A program made the translations under genes and the position numbers. Positions 25,922 to 55,115 of a stretch of 64,000 bases of DNA are shown here, one piece after another (the first letter of the stretch is position 1; the number at the start of each line of letters is the position of its first letter). Origin of the DNA: Enterococcus diestrammenae. Its GTDB lineage: Bacteria; Bacillota; Bacilli; Lactobacillales; Enterococcaceae. The stretch covers positions 1 through 64,000 of the forward strand of contig NZ_MAEI01000053.1 of the NCBI RefSeq assembly GCF_009933255.1, read 5' to 3'. The notes under the pieces were generated by a model. That model was given only the letters and a program-made list of their open reading frames with translations, was not told the DNA's origin and ran no database searches.

Positions 25922-26008
25922 TACGAAATCCTCCTGTATCTTTATTTAGGTATATTATACCTTTATTTTTTTGTTTTGCAAAGAAGGAATCTAAGCCTTC
26001 TTAAAAAG

Positions 26009-26251
26009 CTATTTGCGATCATGGAGACCTTTTTCTTTTTGAATTTGCTTGAGCTTCTCCGGTGTCACATCGTTGCCTTCAGGATCCACTACTTTCATAC
26101 CTTCAATATGGTGGCGCATCCCTGAGCGGAAAGCTTCTAAGTACTCCTGTCGTAGAAGAATCTGTTCTTTTTCTTCAGCAGCGGTTAACGTGCCACTCTT
26201 TTTTTTGCGACCCAATTCGTTGATTCGTGCCATTTTTTCTGCTGACAGCAT
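26009..26251 (-). CDS. DUF896 small protein, YnzC-like
   Basis: An 80-residue two-helix protein: [36 protein letters not shown] is the DUF896 hallmark. It is in the same orientation and directly upstream of tkt. In Bacillus its homologue ynzC is the last gene of the SOS yneA-yneB-ynzC operon beside lexA and tkt. Here it stands divergent from lexA with no yneA or yneB between. ATG 26251 follows AAGGAGG. Molecular function unknown. Confidence 0.9.
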
Positions 26252-26455
26252 TGGCTTGCCTCCTTACCATTGTGAAATGGATTCAATACGATTCCAAATG
26301 AAACGAAGGATTGTTAATCGCCTCGATTCCCCGTTTCACCTCCTCTATCATAAACTAAAGCCGGCAAAAATTACAGTACAAATTCACCAATCAAATGGCT
26401 AAGAAACCTTCTCCCCTCATTAAAGTTGCCAAATTTTTGCCAAGGGAACAACTAG

Positions 26456-26490
26456 CGAACAAATTTCGCCAACAAGCGAACATTTGTTTG
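26456..26490. promoter_or_regulatory. LexA operator(s) of lexA
   Basis: CGAACATTTGTTTG at 26477-26490 matches the Firmicute LexA box CGAACRNRYGTTYC at nearly all positions; a weaker half-match CGAACAAATTTCGC is at 26456-26469. The main box overlaps the -35 of the lexA promoter, giving autorepression. Confidence 0.85.
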
Positions 26491-26516
26491 ATTTCGCTTT
26501 TTACGTATGGTACACT
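26488..26516 (+). promoter_or_regulatory. lexA promoter
   Basis: TTGATT (26488-26493) and TACACT (26511-26516), 17-base spacer, 29 bases before the lexA start codon. Confidence 0.75.
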
Positions 26517-26544
26517 TAGCATAGTAAAGAAAGTAGGTGTAATC

Positions 26545-27168
26545 ATGGCGAAACGAACAGACTCCCGCCAAGAGGAGATCTTGCGCTTCATACATGAACG
26601 AGTCACAGAAAAAGGCTATCCCCCAACCGTACGAGAAATCGGTGAAGCTGTCCACCTGTCTTCCACTTCTACCGTCCATGGGCACCTTTCCCGACTCGAA
26701 AAAAAAGGACTACTCCAACGAGATCCAACTAAACCCCGAGCGATTGAATTAACGCAAGCTGGGTTGGACTTAATTGGCATCAAATCTGAAAATATGCCTG
26801 TGCTAGGTGTGGTCACTGCTGGTGAGCCAATCCTCGCCGTGGAAGAAGCTTCTGACTTTTTCCCCATTCCACCAAATTTGAGTAACGATATTGGTAGTTT
26901 GTTTATGTTGACTATTCGTGGTGAAAGCATGATCAATATCGGTATTTTAGATGGTGACCAAGTCATCGTACGACAACAACGGGATGCCCAAAATGGGGAT
27001 GTCGTCATTGCCATGACCGATGAAAATGAAGCTACTTGCAAACGATTTTTCCGTGAATCTGACCATGTCCGTTTACAACCTGAAAATGATTTTATGGATC
27101 CCATCATTTTGCCAAACGTGACGATTTTAGGCCAAGTAGTTGGTCTTTACCGCAGCCACGTTGGTTGA
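26545..27168 (+). CDS. lexA: SOS repressor LexA
   Basis: A 207-residue repressor. The N-terminal winged helix contains [20 protein letters not shown]. The autocleavage bond is Ala92-Gly93 (VTAGEP) and the catalytic dyad is Ser128 (RGESM) and Lys166. The ATG at 26545 follows AGGTG; an upstream extension of the frame lies over the operator and is not translated. RecA filaments trigger self-cleavage, derepressing SOS genes, of which at least two others lie in this window. Confidence 0.96.
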
Positions 27169-27175
27169 TTTCTAA

Positions 27176-27213
27176 GAGATCTTCAACTTTTTACTTGAAG
27201 ATTTCTTTTTTTA
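27176..27213 (+). terminator. terminator of lexA
   Basis: ATCTTCAA/TTGAAGAT stem followed by TTCTTTTTTT, separating lexA from the small SOS gene. Confidence 0.8.
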
Positions 27214-27214
27214 C

Positions 27215-27264
27215 TTTACAAACCGAACAAACATTCGTATAATAACTGTACAAACATTTGTTCG
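27215..27264 (+). promoter_or_regulatory. promoter with two LexA boxes, small SOS gene
   Basis: TTTACA (27215-27220) and TATAAT (27238-27243) are 17 bases apart. The spacer holds the LexA-like box CGAACAAACATTCG (27224-27237); a second, CAAACATTTGTTCG (27251-27264), covers the transcription start. Together they would repress the promoter tightly until SOS induction. Confidence 0.85.
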
Positions 27265-27288
27265 TATAACTTAGATGAGGTGAAGAAA

Positions 27289-27489
27289 ATGAATGGAATT
27301 CGAAATGTTGCTTTAGTGGGATTAGGATTAGTCATTAGCTATGTGGTGGTCACATATGGAGTCGAGCTGGCAGCCATGATTTTTGTTCCCCTCTTCTTCT
27401 TATGGTTTACCTTGTGGGATGATAAACAGATTCGCCAAGCCCAACGCCGTCAGAGTCGCCAATCTGTCAGCTATCCTAGTCACAAGTAA
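27289..27489 (+). CDS. SOS-controlled small membrane protein, unrecognised
   Basis: A 66-residue protein. Hydrophobic residues about 6-42 (VALVGLGLVISYVVVTYGV then MIFVPLFFLWFTLW) form one long or two short membrane helices; the remaining 24 residues are basic and Gln/Arg-rich and should stay in the cytoplasm if the N-terminus is out, or the reverse. No LysM domain. ATG 27289 has GAGGTGA five bases upstream. Two LexA boxes frame its promoter. SOS-induced small membrane proteins next to lexA (YneA in Bacillus, SosA in Staphylococcus) block division, so this is a candidate analogue, but sequence similarity to either is not evident. Confidence 0.75.
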   Translation: MNGIRNVALVGLGLVISYVVVTYGVELAAMIFVPLFFLWFTLWDDKQIRQAQRRQSRQSVSYPSHK

Positions 27490-27508
27490 ATTGATAAATA
27501 GAAACAGG

Positions 27509-27555
27509 AACAAATAGGAGCTGTTGCCAGTTAAAGGCAACAGCTCCTATTTGTT
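27509..27555 (+). terminator. perfect 20-base hairpin after the small SOS gene
   Basis: Arms 27509-27528 and 27536-27555 are exact complements with a seven-base loop. A T-rich tail follows. The rest of 27556-27777 shows no gene. Confidence 0.75.
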
Positions 27556-27777
27556 TGGCTATTATCAGATGAACTTGGTAAAATCGAAAAACAAAATGAG
27601 CACACTTCCGGAGATTTTCTCGGGTAGTGGCAAACTTTGTTTTAGTGAAATGTATGTGCTTTTGTATTTAAGACTAGCAGGCTCTTCTTTAAAGATCATG
27701 AAGTCATGTCCCGCGCACAACAACATGACAGAGAAATCGTGTTTTTTAAGTTTTAATCTATTCGTTTTCAAAGCAAT

Positions 27778-27816
27778 AAAAAAGGTACTGCAACCAAAAT
27801 TGTCAGTACCTTTTAT
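27778..27816 (-). terminator. terminator of apt
   Basis: AAAGGTACTG/CAGTACCTTTT arms with T run on the minus strand, overlapping the region of the apt stop. Confidence 0.8.
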
Positions 27817-27818
27817 CA

Positions 27819-28331
27819 TTAGTAATCCATCAAGGTTAAGATTTCGTAATTGGCAATTTTATCACGGCCATGCAAGTCTTTTAGCTCAATTAAGAAGGCA
27901 CAACCGACAACGATCCCCCCCAATTTTTCAACCAGGTCAATGGTCGCTTTAACGGTACCACCAGTAGCCAATAAATCATCACAAACCAAGACTCGTTGTC
28001 CCGGTTTGATGGCATCGGCATGTAAGGTCAAGGTATCTGTGCCATATTCCAACTCATAGGATACTGAGATGGTTTCTCGTGGCAACTTCCCTGGTTTGCG
28101 GACTGGCGCAAAGCCGACTCCTAATTCATACGCTACAGGACAGCCCACGATAAAACCTCGTGCTTCCGGGCCCACTACCATATCAATACTTTTTTCTGCT
28201 GCATAATCCACGATTTGCTTTGTGGCTTCCCGGTAGGCCTCGCCATTGGCCATGAGCGGGGAAATGTCGCGGAAGACAATCCCTTTTTGTGGGTAATCAG
28301 CAATGCTTGCGACATAATCTCTTAAATCCAT
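27819..28331 (-). CDS. apt: adenine phosphoribosyltransferase
   Basis: A 170-residue purine salvage enzyme making AMP from adenine and PRPP. The PRPP-binding motif [13 protein letters not shown] is at about 116-128, and FRDISPLM and GPEARGFI are family signatures. It follows recJ on the same strand at about 110 bases, the usual Firmicute order, so one transcript is likely. ATG 28331 has AGGAGGAAACA upstream. Confidence 0.95.
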
Positions 28332-28443
28332 CTTGTTTCCTCCTATGATGTGTGAAAAACAGTCTTCGCTATAAGTTACTGTGTTTGAAAGTCATCTGAT
28401 GAATCCCTTTCTATAATCAAAGGAATCCTCCCTATCAGCAAAC

Positions 28444-30747
28444 CTAGCTCATCAACCAAGCCTTTAATGTGCCAGGATCTGACAACAATAAAAATTCTTC
28501 ACTTTTTATCTTTTTCAAGCGAGATGCATATAATTTGCTGGATTCCAATGCTTTTTTTTCAGCAGTGGGCTCTCGTTGCAAAACACCATCGCTTATTGTA
28601 ACAAATTTCAGATCAAAAAACACCTGAATCATGAAAATCAATAATTTTGGTGGTAAATGTAAATATCCCGCGATTTCTGGTAATTTGTTGCGAATATCTA
28701 AGCGGGGTTGTGCCGCAATTAGTTTAAAAAGACGAGCGTATTGCTCCCGGGTCCCAATCCCATCCAAATACGCATCATCATGCGCTTCTAAGACGAACAT
28801 CACCCGATTGATTTGTGCTTGCTGCAGGACCTCTTTGATCAAGGTAGGATCTTCTGGACAATCGAGAAATGCAATTTCCTGATAATTATCCGCAGTCAAG
28901 GTTTGCTGCAACTGCTCCGCTCCACGATAGCGATAAATGCTTTCGCCAAACTGACTATCTAACGACCGACTCAAACGATTGAAGGCCAACAACAAGGTTG
29001 CCTTTGTAGGATTAAAGAGCCGGACATTTTTTTTGCCTCGGAAATCAAATAACTGTAGGCCGGTGACTTGGAAATCCACTAGCTGCATCTGCGGTTTTTT
29101 GACCCCGTTCCATTCATTGATGGTAAACTCCCCTACCAAGGTGAAAGCCTCACCCTTAAACTCCTCGATTTCAGAGCCAAAGTCAAAGCCAATGACATCT
29201 AAAGCATCTGCTGATGAATCATCGACTACCGCCATCTTCAAGTGTTGCTGATTGGCACCTATTTGTCGTAAAACAGTCGTTCCTGTCGCTTTCAAAGCAA
29301 AGCGAGGTAAGGGATTATCCGTTCCAAATGGCGCTAACACAGCAAGGCTTTCAATAAACGGTAAGGTAATATCAGTGACTTTTACCTCACCATCAATAAG
29401 CAATTCCTCACCAGTCGTCAAATCTAGCTTCTGCTCATCGAGATAGTCAACCATGCGCTGTTTTAACTCAGCCAAATTTTCTTGAGGCAAACTCAACCCA
29501 ACCGCCGCATGGTGTCCACCAAAACTTGTAAATAAATCCCGCATGCCATCTAACATCTGGTAAAGATTCAAGGCTTCAATACTACGACCAGAGCCTTTAC
29601 AAATTCCATCTTCTTTAATCGTCAAAACAATGGCTGGCTTTCCGGTACTCCGAAGAATTCGTCCCGCTACGATCCCCAATACCCCCTCATGCCAATTGTG
29701 ACCAGCGACTAGGTGGATTGGACTATTGGGATCCAGCATCCCCATAGCTTCCTCAGTGATGGCTGCAACTAAAGCTTTGCGCTCTTCGTTGATCGTATTT
29801 AAACTACCGGCCAACTGGCGAGCTTCCTCTTCATCAAAAGTAGTCAGTAAAGTCACGGCCGGATTGGGATCTCCTAATCGACCAACGGCATTTAGACGAG
29901 GGCTGATTGCAAAACCGATCATCGTTTCATCGACATCGGTAATTTTACTTTGGGCTGCTCGAAACAGCTCTTGTAGACCGATGCGCTCCGTCTGTTTGAT
30001 CATTTGAAGACCAATCGATACCATGACGCGATTTTCATCGGTCAAAGAAACCATGTCTGCAATCGTTCCAATAGCTGCTAAATCCATAAACTCTAGTGGC
30101 ACCTCATCTAGTAAGGCACAAGCAACTTTGAACGCAACCCCGACGCCTGCCAAATCTCCAAACGGATACTGCCCTTTTGGATGGCGAGGATGAATAATGC
30201 CATACGCATTTGGTAATTCTGCTGGCAACTCGTGGTGGTCTGTGACGATGACATCCACCCCTTGGCTATTGGCAAAATCGATTGCTGCATGTCCGGAAAC
30301 ACCATTGTCTACCGTGACAATCAGCTGGATTCCGTTTTCAATTTGTTGGCGATAGACATCTAGATTAGGGCCATAGCCATCAGTGAAGCGATTCGGTAAG
30401 TAAACGGTAACGTCAGCCCCCATCAATTCTAGCGCTTCTTTCATCACCGTCGAACTGGTAATACCGTCCGCATCGTAATCACCATAGACTAAAATCCGTT
30501 CCCCATCTGCAATCGCTTGTTGGAGACGAACCACGACTTTATCCATGTCGTAAAATAAAAAAGGATCATAAAGATCAGTTAATTGTGGATTCAAAAAAAG
30601 TTCTAGCGCTTCCGGTTCCCGAATATTTCGCTGCCATAAAAGCTTAGCAATCGCTTCAGATAAGCCACGTTCCTGGATTAACTTACGAAACTCGTCAGTC
30701 AAGACGGGGCTCTCCGGAAACTTCCATTGATTTTTTGCCTGATGCAC
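28444..30747 (-). CDS. recJ: single-stranded-DNA exonuclease RecJ
   Basis: A 767-residue 5'-3' exonuclease for recombination and mismatch repair. The DHH-phosphoesterase motifs are VYGDYDADGIT, VTVDNG, VTDHHELPA and the late GSGRS near the DHHA1 domain; an OB-fold and a Firmicute-specific C-terminal extension follow. The GTG at 30747 is chosen because GGGAGTG precedes it; the TTG at 30762 would use no ribosome site. Upstream of apt. Confidence 0.95.
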   Translation of the reverse strand: MHQAKNQWKFPESPVLTDEFRKLIQERGLSEAIAKLLWQRNIREPEALELFLNPQLTDLYDPFLFYDMDKVVVRLQQAIADGERILVYGDYDADGITSSTVMKEALELMGADVTVYLPNRFTDGYGPNLDVYRQQIENGIQLIVTVDNGVSGHAAIDFANSQGVDVIVTDHHELPAELPNAYGIIHPRHPKGQYPFGDLAGVGVAFKVACALLDEVPLEFMDLAAIGTIADMVSLTDENRVMVSIGLQMIKQTERIGLQELFRAAQSKITDVDETMIGFAISPRLNAVGRLGDPNPAVTLLTTFDEEEARQLAGSLNTINEERKALVAAITEEAMGMLDPNSPIHLVAGHNWHEGVLGIVAGRILRSTGKPAIVLTIKEDGICKGSGRSIEALNLYQMLDGMRDLFTSFGGHHAAVGLSLPQENLAELKQRMVDYLDEQKLDLTTGEELLIDGEVKVTDITLPFIESLAVLAPFGTDNPLPRFALKATGTTVLRQIGANQQHLKMAVVDDSSADALDVIGFDFGSEIEEFKGEAFTLVGEFTINEWNGVKKPQMQLVDFQVTGLQLFDFRGKKNVRLFNPTKATLLLAFNRLSRSLDSQFGESIYRYRGAEQLQQTLTADNYQEIAFLDCPEDPTLIKEVLQQAQINRVMFVLEAHDDAYLDGIGTREQYARLFKLIAAQPRLDIRNKLPEIAGYLHLPPKLLIFMIQVFFDLKFVTISDGVLQREPTAEKKALESSKLYASRLKKIKSEEFLLLSDPGTLKAWLMS

Positions 30748-52692: not shown

Positions 52693-55050
52693 TTAAACGG
52701 TGTTCTGGGTTCTCCAAAAATCTGACAACTCTGCTTGTAACTGCTGGGTATCATGGACTAAACGGGCATGACGCCAATGCTGGGGAAAGAGTTTCTGATA
52801 TCTGGGGGAGATAAACCGCTGATCTAACAGTAAGACCACCCCAAAATCCGATACATCGCGAATAACGCGACCAGCTGCTTGTAACACTTTATTCATTCCC
52901 GGCAGTTGATAGGCGTATTCAAATCCCTTGCCCTGAGCGTCATCGAAATAGTTTTTGATTAAGTCTTGCTCATGATTCATCTGTGGCAGTCCTACACCAA
53001 CAATGGCGGTCCCAATCAAGCGGTCCCCTTTTAAATCAATCCCTTCCGAAAATATGCCTCCCAAAACGCAAAAGCCCACCAAGGTTTCAATAGGATTTGC
53101 CTCAAACCGTGCTAAGAAAGCCTCCCGCTCCTCTTCAACCATCTGCGTATCTTGAATTAAACAAGTGATCTCTGGATGATTGCTGGCAAAAAGGCTGGCT
53201 ACTTCATCCAAGTATTGATAAGAAGGAAAAAACACCAAATAATTGCCAGTTTTGCCCGTAACCATTTGATAAATAGCATCAACGACTAGTGGCAAACTAG
53301 CTTGGCGCTTACGATAAGTCGTTTCAATATAATCAGCTACTAAAATCCGTTGGTGTTCTGGCGGAAAAGGACTCGGAAGTTTGTAACGCAAGGCTTCCTT
53401 TCCACCTCCAAGAACATCTTGATAATAAGCTAACGGGGTAAAACTGGCCGAAAATAACAAGGCACTTTTACCTTTCGCCAACATCTGATCGAGAAAAGGT
53501 GCTGGCGCGATACAAAATAGTTTGATTTTCAAATCTGTATAAGTGCGTTCGATAGTAGTCTCAAAATGATCATCATAGATTTCTGAAATCCGCAAGAAAG
53601 CTTGGACTTCAAAATAATAGGCCAAACCAGTTTCTTCTGCAGGATTGCCAGGATTGGCCGCCAACCATTCTTTCATTTTTTCCGAAAAACCATACAAGCG
53701 GTTAATCAGACTCTCCGGCATCAGGGATTGGTGTTTAAAGCGCCAATCTTCTTCGATTGAGCGTTGTTGCAAGAGTTCAAATTCATTGTCGATTTGATTG
53801 AGACGACGATGCAATCCGCGAAAGCTTTTCGGCAGTTTTTCTTGAAAAGCGTTACCGCTATTACGGGACAGAGTCGCTGAATACATTTCCCGCGAACGAC
53901 TAACCAAATTATGGGCTTCATCAATCAGAAAGTAATAGTCCTCTTTTGGTTCCTCAAAAAAACGTCGCAAATAAACCGTCGGATCGAATAAATAATTGTA
54001 GTCACCAATAATGACATCGCAAAACAGACTGACATCTAATGATAATTCAAAGGGACAGAGCTCATGCTTTTTCCCGTAATGCTCAATAACTTCCCGTGTA
54101 ATTTGATTTTCATGATGAAGTAAATCCCACAAGCCTTCATTGATCCGATTGTAGTAGCCTTTAGCATAAGGACAGTGTTCTGGCGTACAATTACGCTCTT
54201 CTAGAAAACATATTTTATCCTTCGCTGTCAACGTCACCGATTTTGTTTGACTGCCATTCTTCGCTAACGCCTTGAGGGCATCTTCAGCGACTTGTCGGGT
54301 GATGGTTTTGGCAGTCAGATAAAAGCAACGATCACCATCTGCTTCTCCCATCGCCTTTAACGCTGGAAAAAGGGTGGAAATCGTTTTACCGGTGCCGGTG
54401 GGAGCTTCGACGAAAAGACGTCGAGAAGTCTTCAAGGTTTTATAAGCTGCCGCCGCCAGTTCTCGTTGCCCTTTACGAAAAGTTTCATAGGGAAAGGTCA
54501 ATTTGGTCAATGCCGTATTGCGAACTCTGCGCCAATCATCTTGGAATACCAACCATTTATGGTATTCCGTAAGTAAATGATCCATAAACAGTTGTAAGTC
54601 CGTCATCGTGAACTCGCGGCGGGTACGGGTGATGACTTCTTCTGTGGTCTGATAATAAGTCACCTGCACGGCTATCTCCGTCAACTGTTCCTGAAAAGCA
54701 TAAAGATAGCCATAGACCATCCCTTGAAAGAAAAACAGCTCCAACTGATCTTCTGACAAGTCTTCGAAATGAACTTCTGAAGTCTTAATTTCATCAATAA
54801 CTGTTTTACCAGCTTCATCACAAAAAATCCCATCAGCTCGTCCTTCGATGGTCAGAGAATCCTCTTGGACAGTCATGGTCCGTTTTAAGCTGACTTCCTT
54901 TGCATAATCCTCACCAGCAGCTTTCTGCAGTTTTCGATGGAGGCGGGCGCCTTCTTGTGCCGTGTGGTTTGAGACATGACGACTATCAATATCCCCTCGG
55001 CGTAAAGTAAATTCCACAATCTCACGAACGGAGATTTTTCCACGATCCAT
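52693..55050 (-). CDS. XPD/DinG-type helicase with Cas4-like nuclease domain, SOS-linked
   Basis: A 785-residue superfamily 2 DNA helicase. Residues about 1-185 form a PD-(D/E)XK (Cas4/RecB-like) region with EGRADGIFCDEAGKTVIDEIKTSE. The helicase core follows with EAPTGTGKTIST (about 215), four cysteines of an Fe-S domain (CFLEERNCTPEHC and further Cys), IDEAHNLVSR, and late QAAGRVIRD. It is likely a repair helicase/nuclease of the DinG-like subgroup. ATG 55050 follows AGGTGAGAG. A LexA-type box lies 52 bases upstream. Confidence 0.9.
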   Translation of the reverse strand: MDRGKISVREIVEFTLRRGDIDSRHVSNHTAQEGARLHRKLQKAAGEDYAKEVSLKRTMTVQEDSLTIEGRADGIFCDEAGKTVIDEIKTSEVHFEDLSEDQLELFFFQGMVYGYLYAFQEQLTEIAVQVTYYQTTEEVITRTRREFTMTDLQLFMDHLLTEYHKWLVFQDDWRRVRNTALTKLTFPYETFRKGQRELAAAAYKTLKTSRRLFVEAPTGTGKTISTLFPALKAMGEADGDRCFYLTAKTITRQVAEDALKALAKNGSQTKSVTLTAKDKICFLEERNCTPEHCPYAKGYYNRINEGLWDLLHHENQITREVIEHYGKKHELCPFELSLDVSLFCDVIIGDYNYLFDPTVYLRRFFEEPKEDYYFLIDEAHNLVSRSREMYSATLSRNSGNAFQEKLPKSFRGLHRRLNQIDNEFELLQQRSIEEDWRFKHQSLMPESLINRLYGFSEKMKEWLAANPGNPAEETGLAYYFEVQAFLRISEIYDDHFETTIERTYTDLKIKLFCIAPAPFLDQMLAKGKSALLFSASFTPLAYYQDVLGGGKEALRYKLPSPFPPEHQRILVADYIETTYRKRQASLPLVVDAIYQMVTGKTGNYLVFFPSYQYLDEVASLFASNHPEITCLIQDTQMVEEEREAFLARFEANPIETLVGFCVLGGIFSEGIDLKGDRLIGTAIVGVGLPQMNHEQDLIKNYFDDAQGKGFEYAYQLPGMNKVLQAAGRVIRDVSDFGVVLLLDQRFISPRYQKLFPQHWRHARLVHDTQQLQAELSDFWRTQNTV

Positions 55051-55101: not shown

Positions 55102-55115
55102 CGAACATACGTTTA
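55102..55115. promoter_or_regulatory. LexA operator of the helicase gene
   Basis: CGAACATACGTTTA matches CGAACRNRYGTTYC at 12 of 14 positions. On the minus strand it lies just after an extended -10 TGGTATAAA. Repression by LexA and SOS induction are expected. Confidence 0.8.

Follow-up and report, generated by a model that had tools for sequence, protein, structure and literature searches.

The window (the whole stretch of 64,000 nucleotides that was analysed) contains a gene of 66 codons beside the SOS repressor gene lexA, with the translated product MNGIRNVALVGLGLVISYVVVTYGVELAAMIFVPLFFLWFTLWDDKQIRQAQRRQSRQSVSYPSHK and the features collected in Table 1. The promoter, TTTACA-17-TATAAT, matches the consensus at 11 of 12 positions with a 17-base spacer according to the scan, and the leader between the expected transcription start and the small gene would span approximately 39 bases. 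A DUF896 gene (Pfam) is divergent from lexA, and on the convergent side of the small gene lie two genes which we take, from their sequence, to be apt and then recJ. The terminator-like hairpin 3' of lexA suggests that the small gene is probably a separate transcription unit of its own. Reading and scanning of the stretch recovered the near-consensus promoter, with LexA-type boxes in its spacer and over the start, that had been reported in the preliminary description, and the ribosome site was found ahead of the ATG as claimed there.

Table 1. Positions of the genes, regulatory elements and predicted protein segments at the small-gene locus, numbered from the first letter of the window
Feature	Position	Strand	Remarks
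LexA-type box before lexA, CGAACATTTGTTTG	26477..26490		1 mismatch to CGAACnnnnGTTCG
lexA, SOS repressor	26545..27168	+	TIGR00498, 223 bits vs cut-off 110.95
Terminator-like hairpin in the lexA/small-gene gap	27174..27207	+	13-pair stem, T tail
-35 hexamer TTTACA	27215..27220	+	Direct reading and promoter scan
LexA-type box 1, CGAACAAACATTCG	27224..27237		Within the promoter spacer; position conserved among relatives
-10 hexamer TATAAT	27238..27243	+	Direct reading and promoter scan
LexA-type box 2, CAAACATTTGTTCG	27251..27264		Covers the expected transcription start
Ribosome binding site GAGGTG	27277..27282	+	Read directly
Small gene, 66 codons	27289..27489	+	ATG 27289, TAA 27487-27489; likely SOS membrane protein; reading and ORF listing
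Predicted helix 1, membrane, residues 3-23	27295..27357	+	AlphaFold2 model
Predicted membrane part of helix 2, residues 25-43	27361..27417	+	Ends in W39...W43-D44; model and alignments
Charged tail, residues 44-66, predicted cytoplasmic	27418..27486	+	Charge counts, 55 relatives
20-pair inverted repeat 3' of the small gene, possibly a terminator	27509..27555		Scan: - strand only; stem symmetrical
apt (adenine phosphoribosyltransferase)	27819..28331	-	Convergent neighbour; name presumed from the sequence

Single LexA-type boxes did not stand out from the background. With one mismatch allowed, GAACnnnnGTTC matched at 18 sites in the window against 25 expected from shuffles, which is not significant, and genome-wide the lone 14-base box occurred 7 times per strand against 15 for a reversed-pattern control, that is, with no excess. 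Similarly, the promoter scan alone returned 4 promoter-like sites in the window against 3.6 expected, the TTTACA-17-TATAAT site being the best. The operator and promoter taken as one pattern, with up to 3 mismatches, were found at a single place in the whole genome and nowhere in the control. Among relatives, the arrangement was followed at 55 named loci from a single scan of a species-representative collection, which belong to Enterococcus, Tetragenococcus, Vagococcus and one unclassified Lactobacillales MAG. Two or more boxes, with 2 mismatches allowed, lie no more than 130 bp from the start in 53 of them, L110 having one box and L109 none. As a control, 7629 overlapping windows of 130 bases were taken from these loci: at least one box was present in 276 and at least two in 14. 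Of the 53 two-box loci, 50 have a start-to-start distance of 27 bp between the boxes (29, 33 and 35 bp in the other three), and the 50 loci with this spacing share TTTAC (50/50), the final A of the -35 hexamer (49/50) and TATA[A/C]T (50/50). It is the box pair, not the lone box, that forms the signal above chance.

Both boxes are also kept in all 16 loci without lexA in the flanks examined (in L086 these extend only 241 bases upstream), which indicates that the operator belongs to the small gene itself. A smaller set of 30 relatives gave a similar picture, with lexA present in 25 and two boxes by the small gene in 29. With one box between the hexamers and the other across the expected start, the operator is placed to block the promoter. 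As for the double LexA control asserted in the preliminary description, the two-box operator held up; the control itself, which would make the small gene an SOS gene, is very likely on the strength of this arrangement.

The expectation that the gene always follows lexA was not borne out and was rejected. In 39 of the 55 loci, a lexA gene in the same orientation is found no more than 700 bp upstream; apt adjoins the small gene about equally often, with a convergent copy at no more than 900 bp in 41 loci. Both adjoin the small gene in 26 loci, at least one of the two is beside it in 54, and a single locus (L086) has neither. Adjacency to lexA is common and not required.

To describe its distribution, the gene was searched for with a profile in 295 genomes of the order, which gave matches in 74: 45 of the 46 genomes of the window's family (f1), 28 of 29 in the family that includes Vagococcus (f8), and one in f9. 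The f9 match (G205) lies inside a 410-aa frame and was discounted as chance. Some of the f8 matches are of doubtful integrity, the one in G185 being split by a stop and those in G164 and G223 having a stop within the matched stretch, and the best match in G112 is weak (39 bits). A single-sequence search of 59 relatives matched 36 (33 of 36 in f1 and 3 of 3 in f8), and a class-wide draw of 398 genomes yielded 11 matches, 9 of them in f1 or f8; the two outside the order lie inside long frames (594 and 566 aa) and were regarded as chance. The preliminary description had named the lack of homologues with intact reading frames outside a few strains as a result that would speak against it; the homologues found pervade two families, with purifying selection seen in two groups of relatives and with stops in some f8 frames. 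In G049, G055, G134, G164 and other f8 genomes, weaker second or third matches occur elsewhere, possibly representing prophage copies.

A few genomes of these two families depart from the pattern. The gene was absent from G031 in both searches, where the sole operator-like site has 3 mismatches and is followed by an ORF that presumably encodes a Y-family polymerase; G191 (f8) has neither a profile match nor the operator, and G022 has neither a single-sequence match nor the operator. G016, which was likewise unmatched in the single-sequence search, nonetheless carries the operator with 0 mismatches. In this genome (L164, 3073-3341), the operator is followed at the same position before apt by a different hydrophobic ORF of 68 aa, in which QWNERDFRK follows the hydrophobic part and which has no Pfam match. 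From its sequence and place, this ORF could be either a far-diverged member of the family or a replacement.

Two groups of relatives, compared in 36 and 21 pairs, show purifying selection on the small gene: the proportion of differences is 0.25-0.67 at synonymous and 0.006-0.112 at nonsynonymous sites. Between the window and its two nearest named relatives, the corresponding values are 0.78/0.18 and 0.80/0.23, with synonymous sites saturated. Alignments of 20 and of 51 sequences show no variation at M1, L14, W39, W43 and D44; the scan pattern for the 55 loci contained the W-x3-W-D motif, so that its conservation in that set is not independent, and no such pattern was involved in the single-sequence search of 59 relatives or the profile search of 295 genomes. 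When used as a single query, the protein retrieved only 4 close proteins, while its alignment retrieved 94 at E up to 1e-3, whose source names among the matches listed are hypothetical or uncharacterized protein, or DUF2273 and DUF2892 labels. No Pfam or NCBIfam match of the window's protein passed the cut-off, in agreement with its earlier description as unrecognised. PF07690 (MFS_1) is a precomputed label on 3 of the 94 proteins and was also matched by 7 of 20 members (best E 2.6e-5); since this aligns part of a 12-span transporter model with a protein of 70 residues, we attribute the match to membrane composition. Anemone_cytotox (0.041) and PRK09109 (0.011) matched the window's protein under the cut-off and were set aside, as were other, scattered weak matches. 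Solved structures gave no match by sequence, and the two matches of a fold search, with E above 5, were taken as chance.

The hydrophobic stretch comprises residues 6-43, about two thirds of the protein; the hydrophobic character noted earlier for the N-terminal half was thus recovered, over a greater extent than had been stated. AlphaFold2, run on 51 sequences, placed helices at residues 3-23 and 25-59, with a break at the nearly invariant G24, at moderate confidence (mean pLDDT 70.2, pTM 0.40). Counted over the 55 relatives, the mean number of K and R is 2.65 for residues 1-7, 0.42 for residues 20-28 and 6.6 for the tail; the tail, some 28 residues long, also has 5.0 D/E on average. Positive residues at both ends, read by the positive-inside rule, predict a cytoplasmic location of both the N- and the C-terminus. 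Model and charges together predict a two-helix hairpin with both ends inside and a cytoplasmic tail.

Relatives of the small gene are also found in phages. Each of 20 members matched the uncharacterised phage family phrog_1270 with E no higher than 0.1 (best 1.9e-9; 0.012 for the window's own protein), and the phrog_1270 model matched 33 of the 59 relatives at E up to 0.01, with the window's genome (G000) unmatched. Gp11 of phiFL1A, its counterpart in SEsuP-1 and a second copy in G011 aligned with the small-gene family at an hhalign probability of 97.8% (E 1e-12). These genes (L126 4601-4804, L127 4399-4608 and, on the - strand, L130 7739-7933) are early-region genes of temperate phages of Enterococcus or, in one case, of a prophage. 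An antirepressor gene, annotated in two of the loci and assigned by sequence resemblance in L130 (G011), is never more than one to two small genes away. The phage proteins resemble the host protein in length, in the MKAIR start, in the W-x3-W-D-E motif and in hydrophobic layout, but differ in their early-region setting, and no LexA box was found within 250 bp of the three genes. Two further close matches labelled as phage, OR846632 and OR847331, are contigs from wastewater that carry no annotation and are probably bacterial; they were dropped as phage evidence.

According to the accessible part of one report, an SOS division inhibitor is known from each of Bacillus, Listeria and Staphylococcus, and such Gram-positive inhibitors are described as small membrane proteins, commonly encoded beside lexA, with little mutual homology, a single span and an extracellular C-terminus (PMC6851548). 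The small gene resembles that of YneA (Bacillus, Listeria) in encoding a small membrane protein, often near lexA and a DUF896 gene, with LexA control being the very likely common element. The two likely do the same job. Their sequences show no detectable relation, in line with the preliminary description: NF010723, the YneA model, is absent among the NCBIfam matches of the window's protein, hhalign against eight YneA rows gave a probability of 1.0%, and no LysM occurs among the Pfam matches (to E 1 for the window's protein and to E 0.1 for 20 members). The small-gene product further differs from YneA in its predicted two helices and inner tail, and the gene in its place, which is either 3' of lexA in the same orientation or apart from lexA. 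SosA of Staphylococcus shares with it the small size (77 vs 66 residues), the lack of LysM and, on the SosA side, an established LexA control; it differs in being divergent from lexA and in having a single span with an extracellular C-terminus by reporter fusion, as given in the portion of the same paper used here (PMC6851548). In topology, the protein departs from YneA and SosA, to which the preliminary description had likened it: a hairpin positive at both ends with a cytoplasmic C-terminus is predicted here rather than a single span with an extracellular one.

Across the 295 genomes, NF010723 exceeded its cut-off in 35, all of them in f7 (35/36) and none in f1 or f8; the remaining f7 genome scored 59.1 against the cut-off of 60. 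We infer that f7 is probably Listeria and its kin. Among 14 named controls, the model exceeded its cut-off in one. When sub-cut-off matches are included, 276 of the 295 genomes are matched, the window's among them (best 6.4e-10, in a 546-aa frame), and the matches below the cut-off are presumed to be other LysM proteins. The small-gene family and YneA above cut-off do not co-occur in any of the 295 genomes, which fits a replacement of one by the other and is no proof of one. Six other families of the order (f2-f6 and f9) have neither. In three f7 loci, YneA is divergent from lexA, and in L031 and L032 it stands between lexA and a DUF896-like gene; the window has no YneA gene in that position, and the small gene occupies the other side of lexA.

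The reading that we consider best, with a probability of roughly 0.55, is that the predicted hairpin, very likely under SOS control, blocks cell division after DNA damage in the manner of YneA, to which it has no detectable sequence relation. The conservation of a small membrane protein whose gene is preceded by a double LexA operator, in genomes without YneA above cut-off, would most simply be explained by a role as division checkpoint, and the intact operator before a different short hydrophobic ORF in G016 also counts in favour. On the other side stand the absence of the gene from G031, G191 and G022 within its own families, the stops and the weak match among the f8 genomes, a predicted topology unlike that of the known Gram-positive inhibitors (in a model of moderate confidence), the widespread YneA matches below the cut-off, and phage relatives without a LexA box within 250 bp. 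The six families with neither gene also count against the reading, since they imply that the absence of YneA by itself demands no substitute.

If the small gene does act on division, LexA bound to both boxes would shut the promoter tightly in healthy cells, as the boxes and their geometry would allow. LexA cleaves itself upon DNA damage, and the promoter of the small gene would then fire. The protein is predicted to insert as a hairpin with both ends inside, and the motif W-x3-W-D-E/D-K at the inner face, together with the transmembrane helices, may bind a membrane part of the divisome and so hold septum closure. The target could possibly be the FtsW-FtsI synthase, a guess from YneA. As LexA re-accumulates, synthesis would end and division resume. 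For YneA, the parts available of two papers describe an interaction with FtsW, with AlphaFold 3 placing SosA, ChiZ and SidA on FtsW at low confidence (PMC13396833), and clearance by the proteases YlbL and CtpA (PMC6051672). A more specific proposal, which we offer tentatively and at somewhat less than even odds, is a new class of inhibitor serving the DNA-damage checkpoint of enterococci and vagococci: a polytopic hairpin with its active surface on the cytoplasmic side that stops septation from within the membrane, is governed by a rigid two-box LexA operator in the host, and is expressed early in a version of their own by temperate phages, keeping the host undivided. Phages that stop their host from dividing when they are induced would gain from carrying such a gene.

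The hairpin could instead depolarise the membrane as an SOS-induced toxin, sending damaged cells into dormancy, and the small, very hydrophobic product behind two LexA-type boxes would suit this role. TisB of E. coli is likewise an SOS-controlled hydrophobic peptide, but TisB and DinQ are shorter, consist of a single helix and are paired with RNA antitoxins, whereas no known RNA family was found at the small-gene locus (no Rfam match in 26000-28500) and the leader is short. By eye, the 3' intergenic stretch differs between the window and three relatives save for a hairpin, with no conserved antisense RNA apparent. The available text on DinQ presents it as an SOS-regulated, toxic single-transmembrane peptide (PMC3567139). 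The invariant W39, W43 and D44 would suggest a specific partner instead, and we regard a toxin as unlikely. Lysis or permeabilisation by a holin-like or phage-derived protein expressed on SOS is a related thought, drawn from size, predicted topology and the homology to phrog_1270, since class II holins have two spans, both ends inside and a charged tail. Against it, the phage and prophage relatives sit in the early region near the antirepressor and not at the position of a lysis cassette, the host gene is beside lexA and/or apt in 54 of 55 loci and not with an endolysin cassette, only 1 of 20 members touched a holin family (E 0.096), and near-universal presence in two families would be odd for a lysis protein; such a role appears distinctly improbable.

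Temperate phages carrying related genes, and the presence of what we take to be apt and recJ next to the small gene in the window and several loci, would also be compatible with another SOS membrane accessory, which might exclude phage or conjugative DNA, anchor a repair nuclease or steer prophage induction. A PADLOC search with the 20 members returned nothing at E up to 0.01, and apt and recJ run towards the small gene instead of sharing an operon with it, which leaves this option improbable. Finally, single boxes being no commoner than in the controls might raise the suspicion of a chance ORF or chance boxes. The fixed geometry, seen in 50 of the 55 loci, is decisive against this, alongside the purifying selection and the 94 homologous proteins, and the chance of it is negligible.

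The family offers a widespread and easily tested candidate for the division arrest of enterococci after DNA damage. If a block of cell division is indeed what the hairpin exerts, the known inhibitors would be joined by one that is unrelated in sequence and predicted to differ in topology, and comparison with YneA and SosA could point to a common weak point of the divisome. The family also links a gene of the host with a family of phage genes whose function is unknown. In the open-licence literature, no enterococcal SOS division inhibitor was found in the titles and abstract openings among the matches listed, and an older subscription paper could exist. A reconstruction of regulons in lactic acid bacteria, in the part of the text available, treats the LexA regulon for Lactobacillaceae and mentions the presence of LexA for Enterococcaceae (PMC3616900).

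Two further observations were made along the way. Many of the 55 relatives have tyrosine-rich tails, with a mean of 4.1 Tyr per approximately 28 residues, against one Tyr in the tail of the window's own protein; this richness is perhaps a signal for turnover or for a partner. Elsewhere in the window, a LexA-like box, CGAACATACGTTTA (55102-55115, 1 mismatch to CGAACRNRYGTTYG), lies about 50 bp 5' of an ORF on the - strand (52693-55050), which encodes a 785-aa helicase of the Rad3/DinG type with DEAD_2 and Helicase_C_2 domains, under the NCBIfam cut-offs, and which from this placement is possibly another SOS gene.
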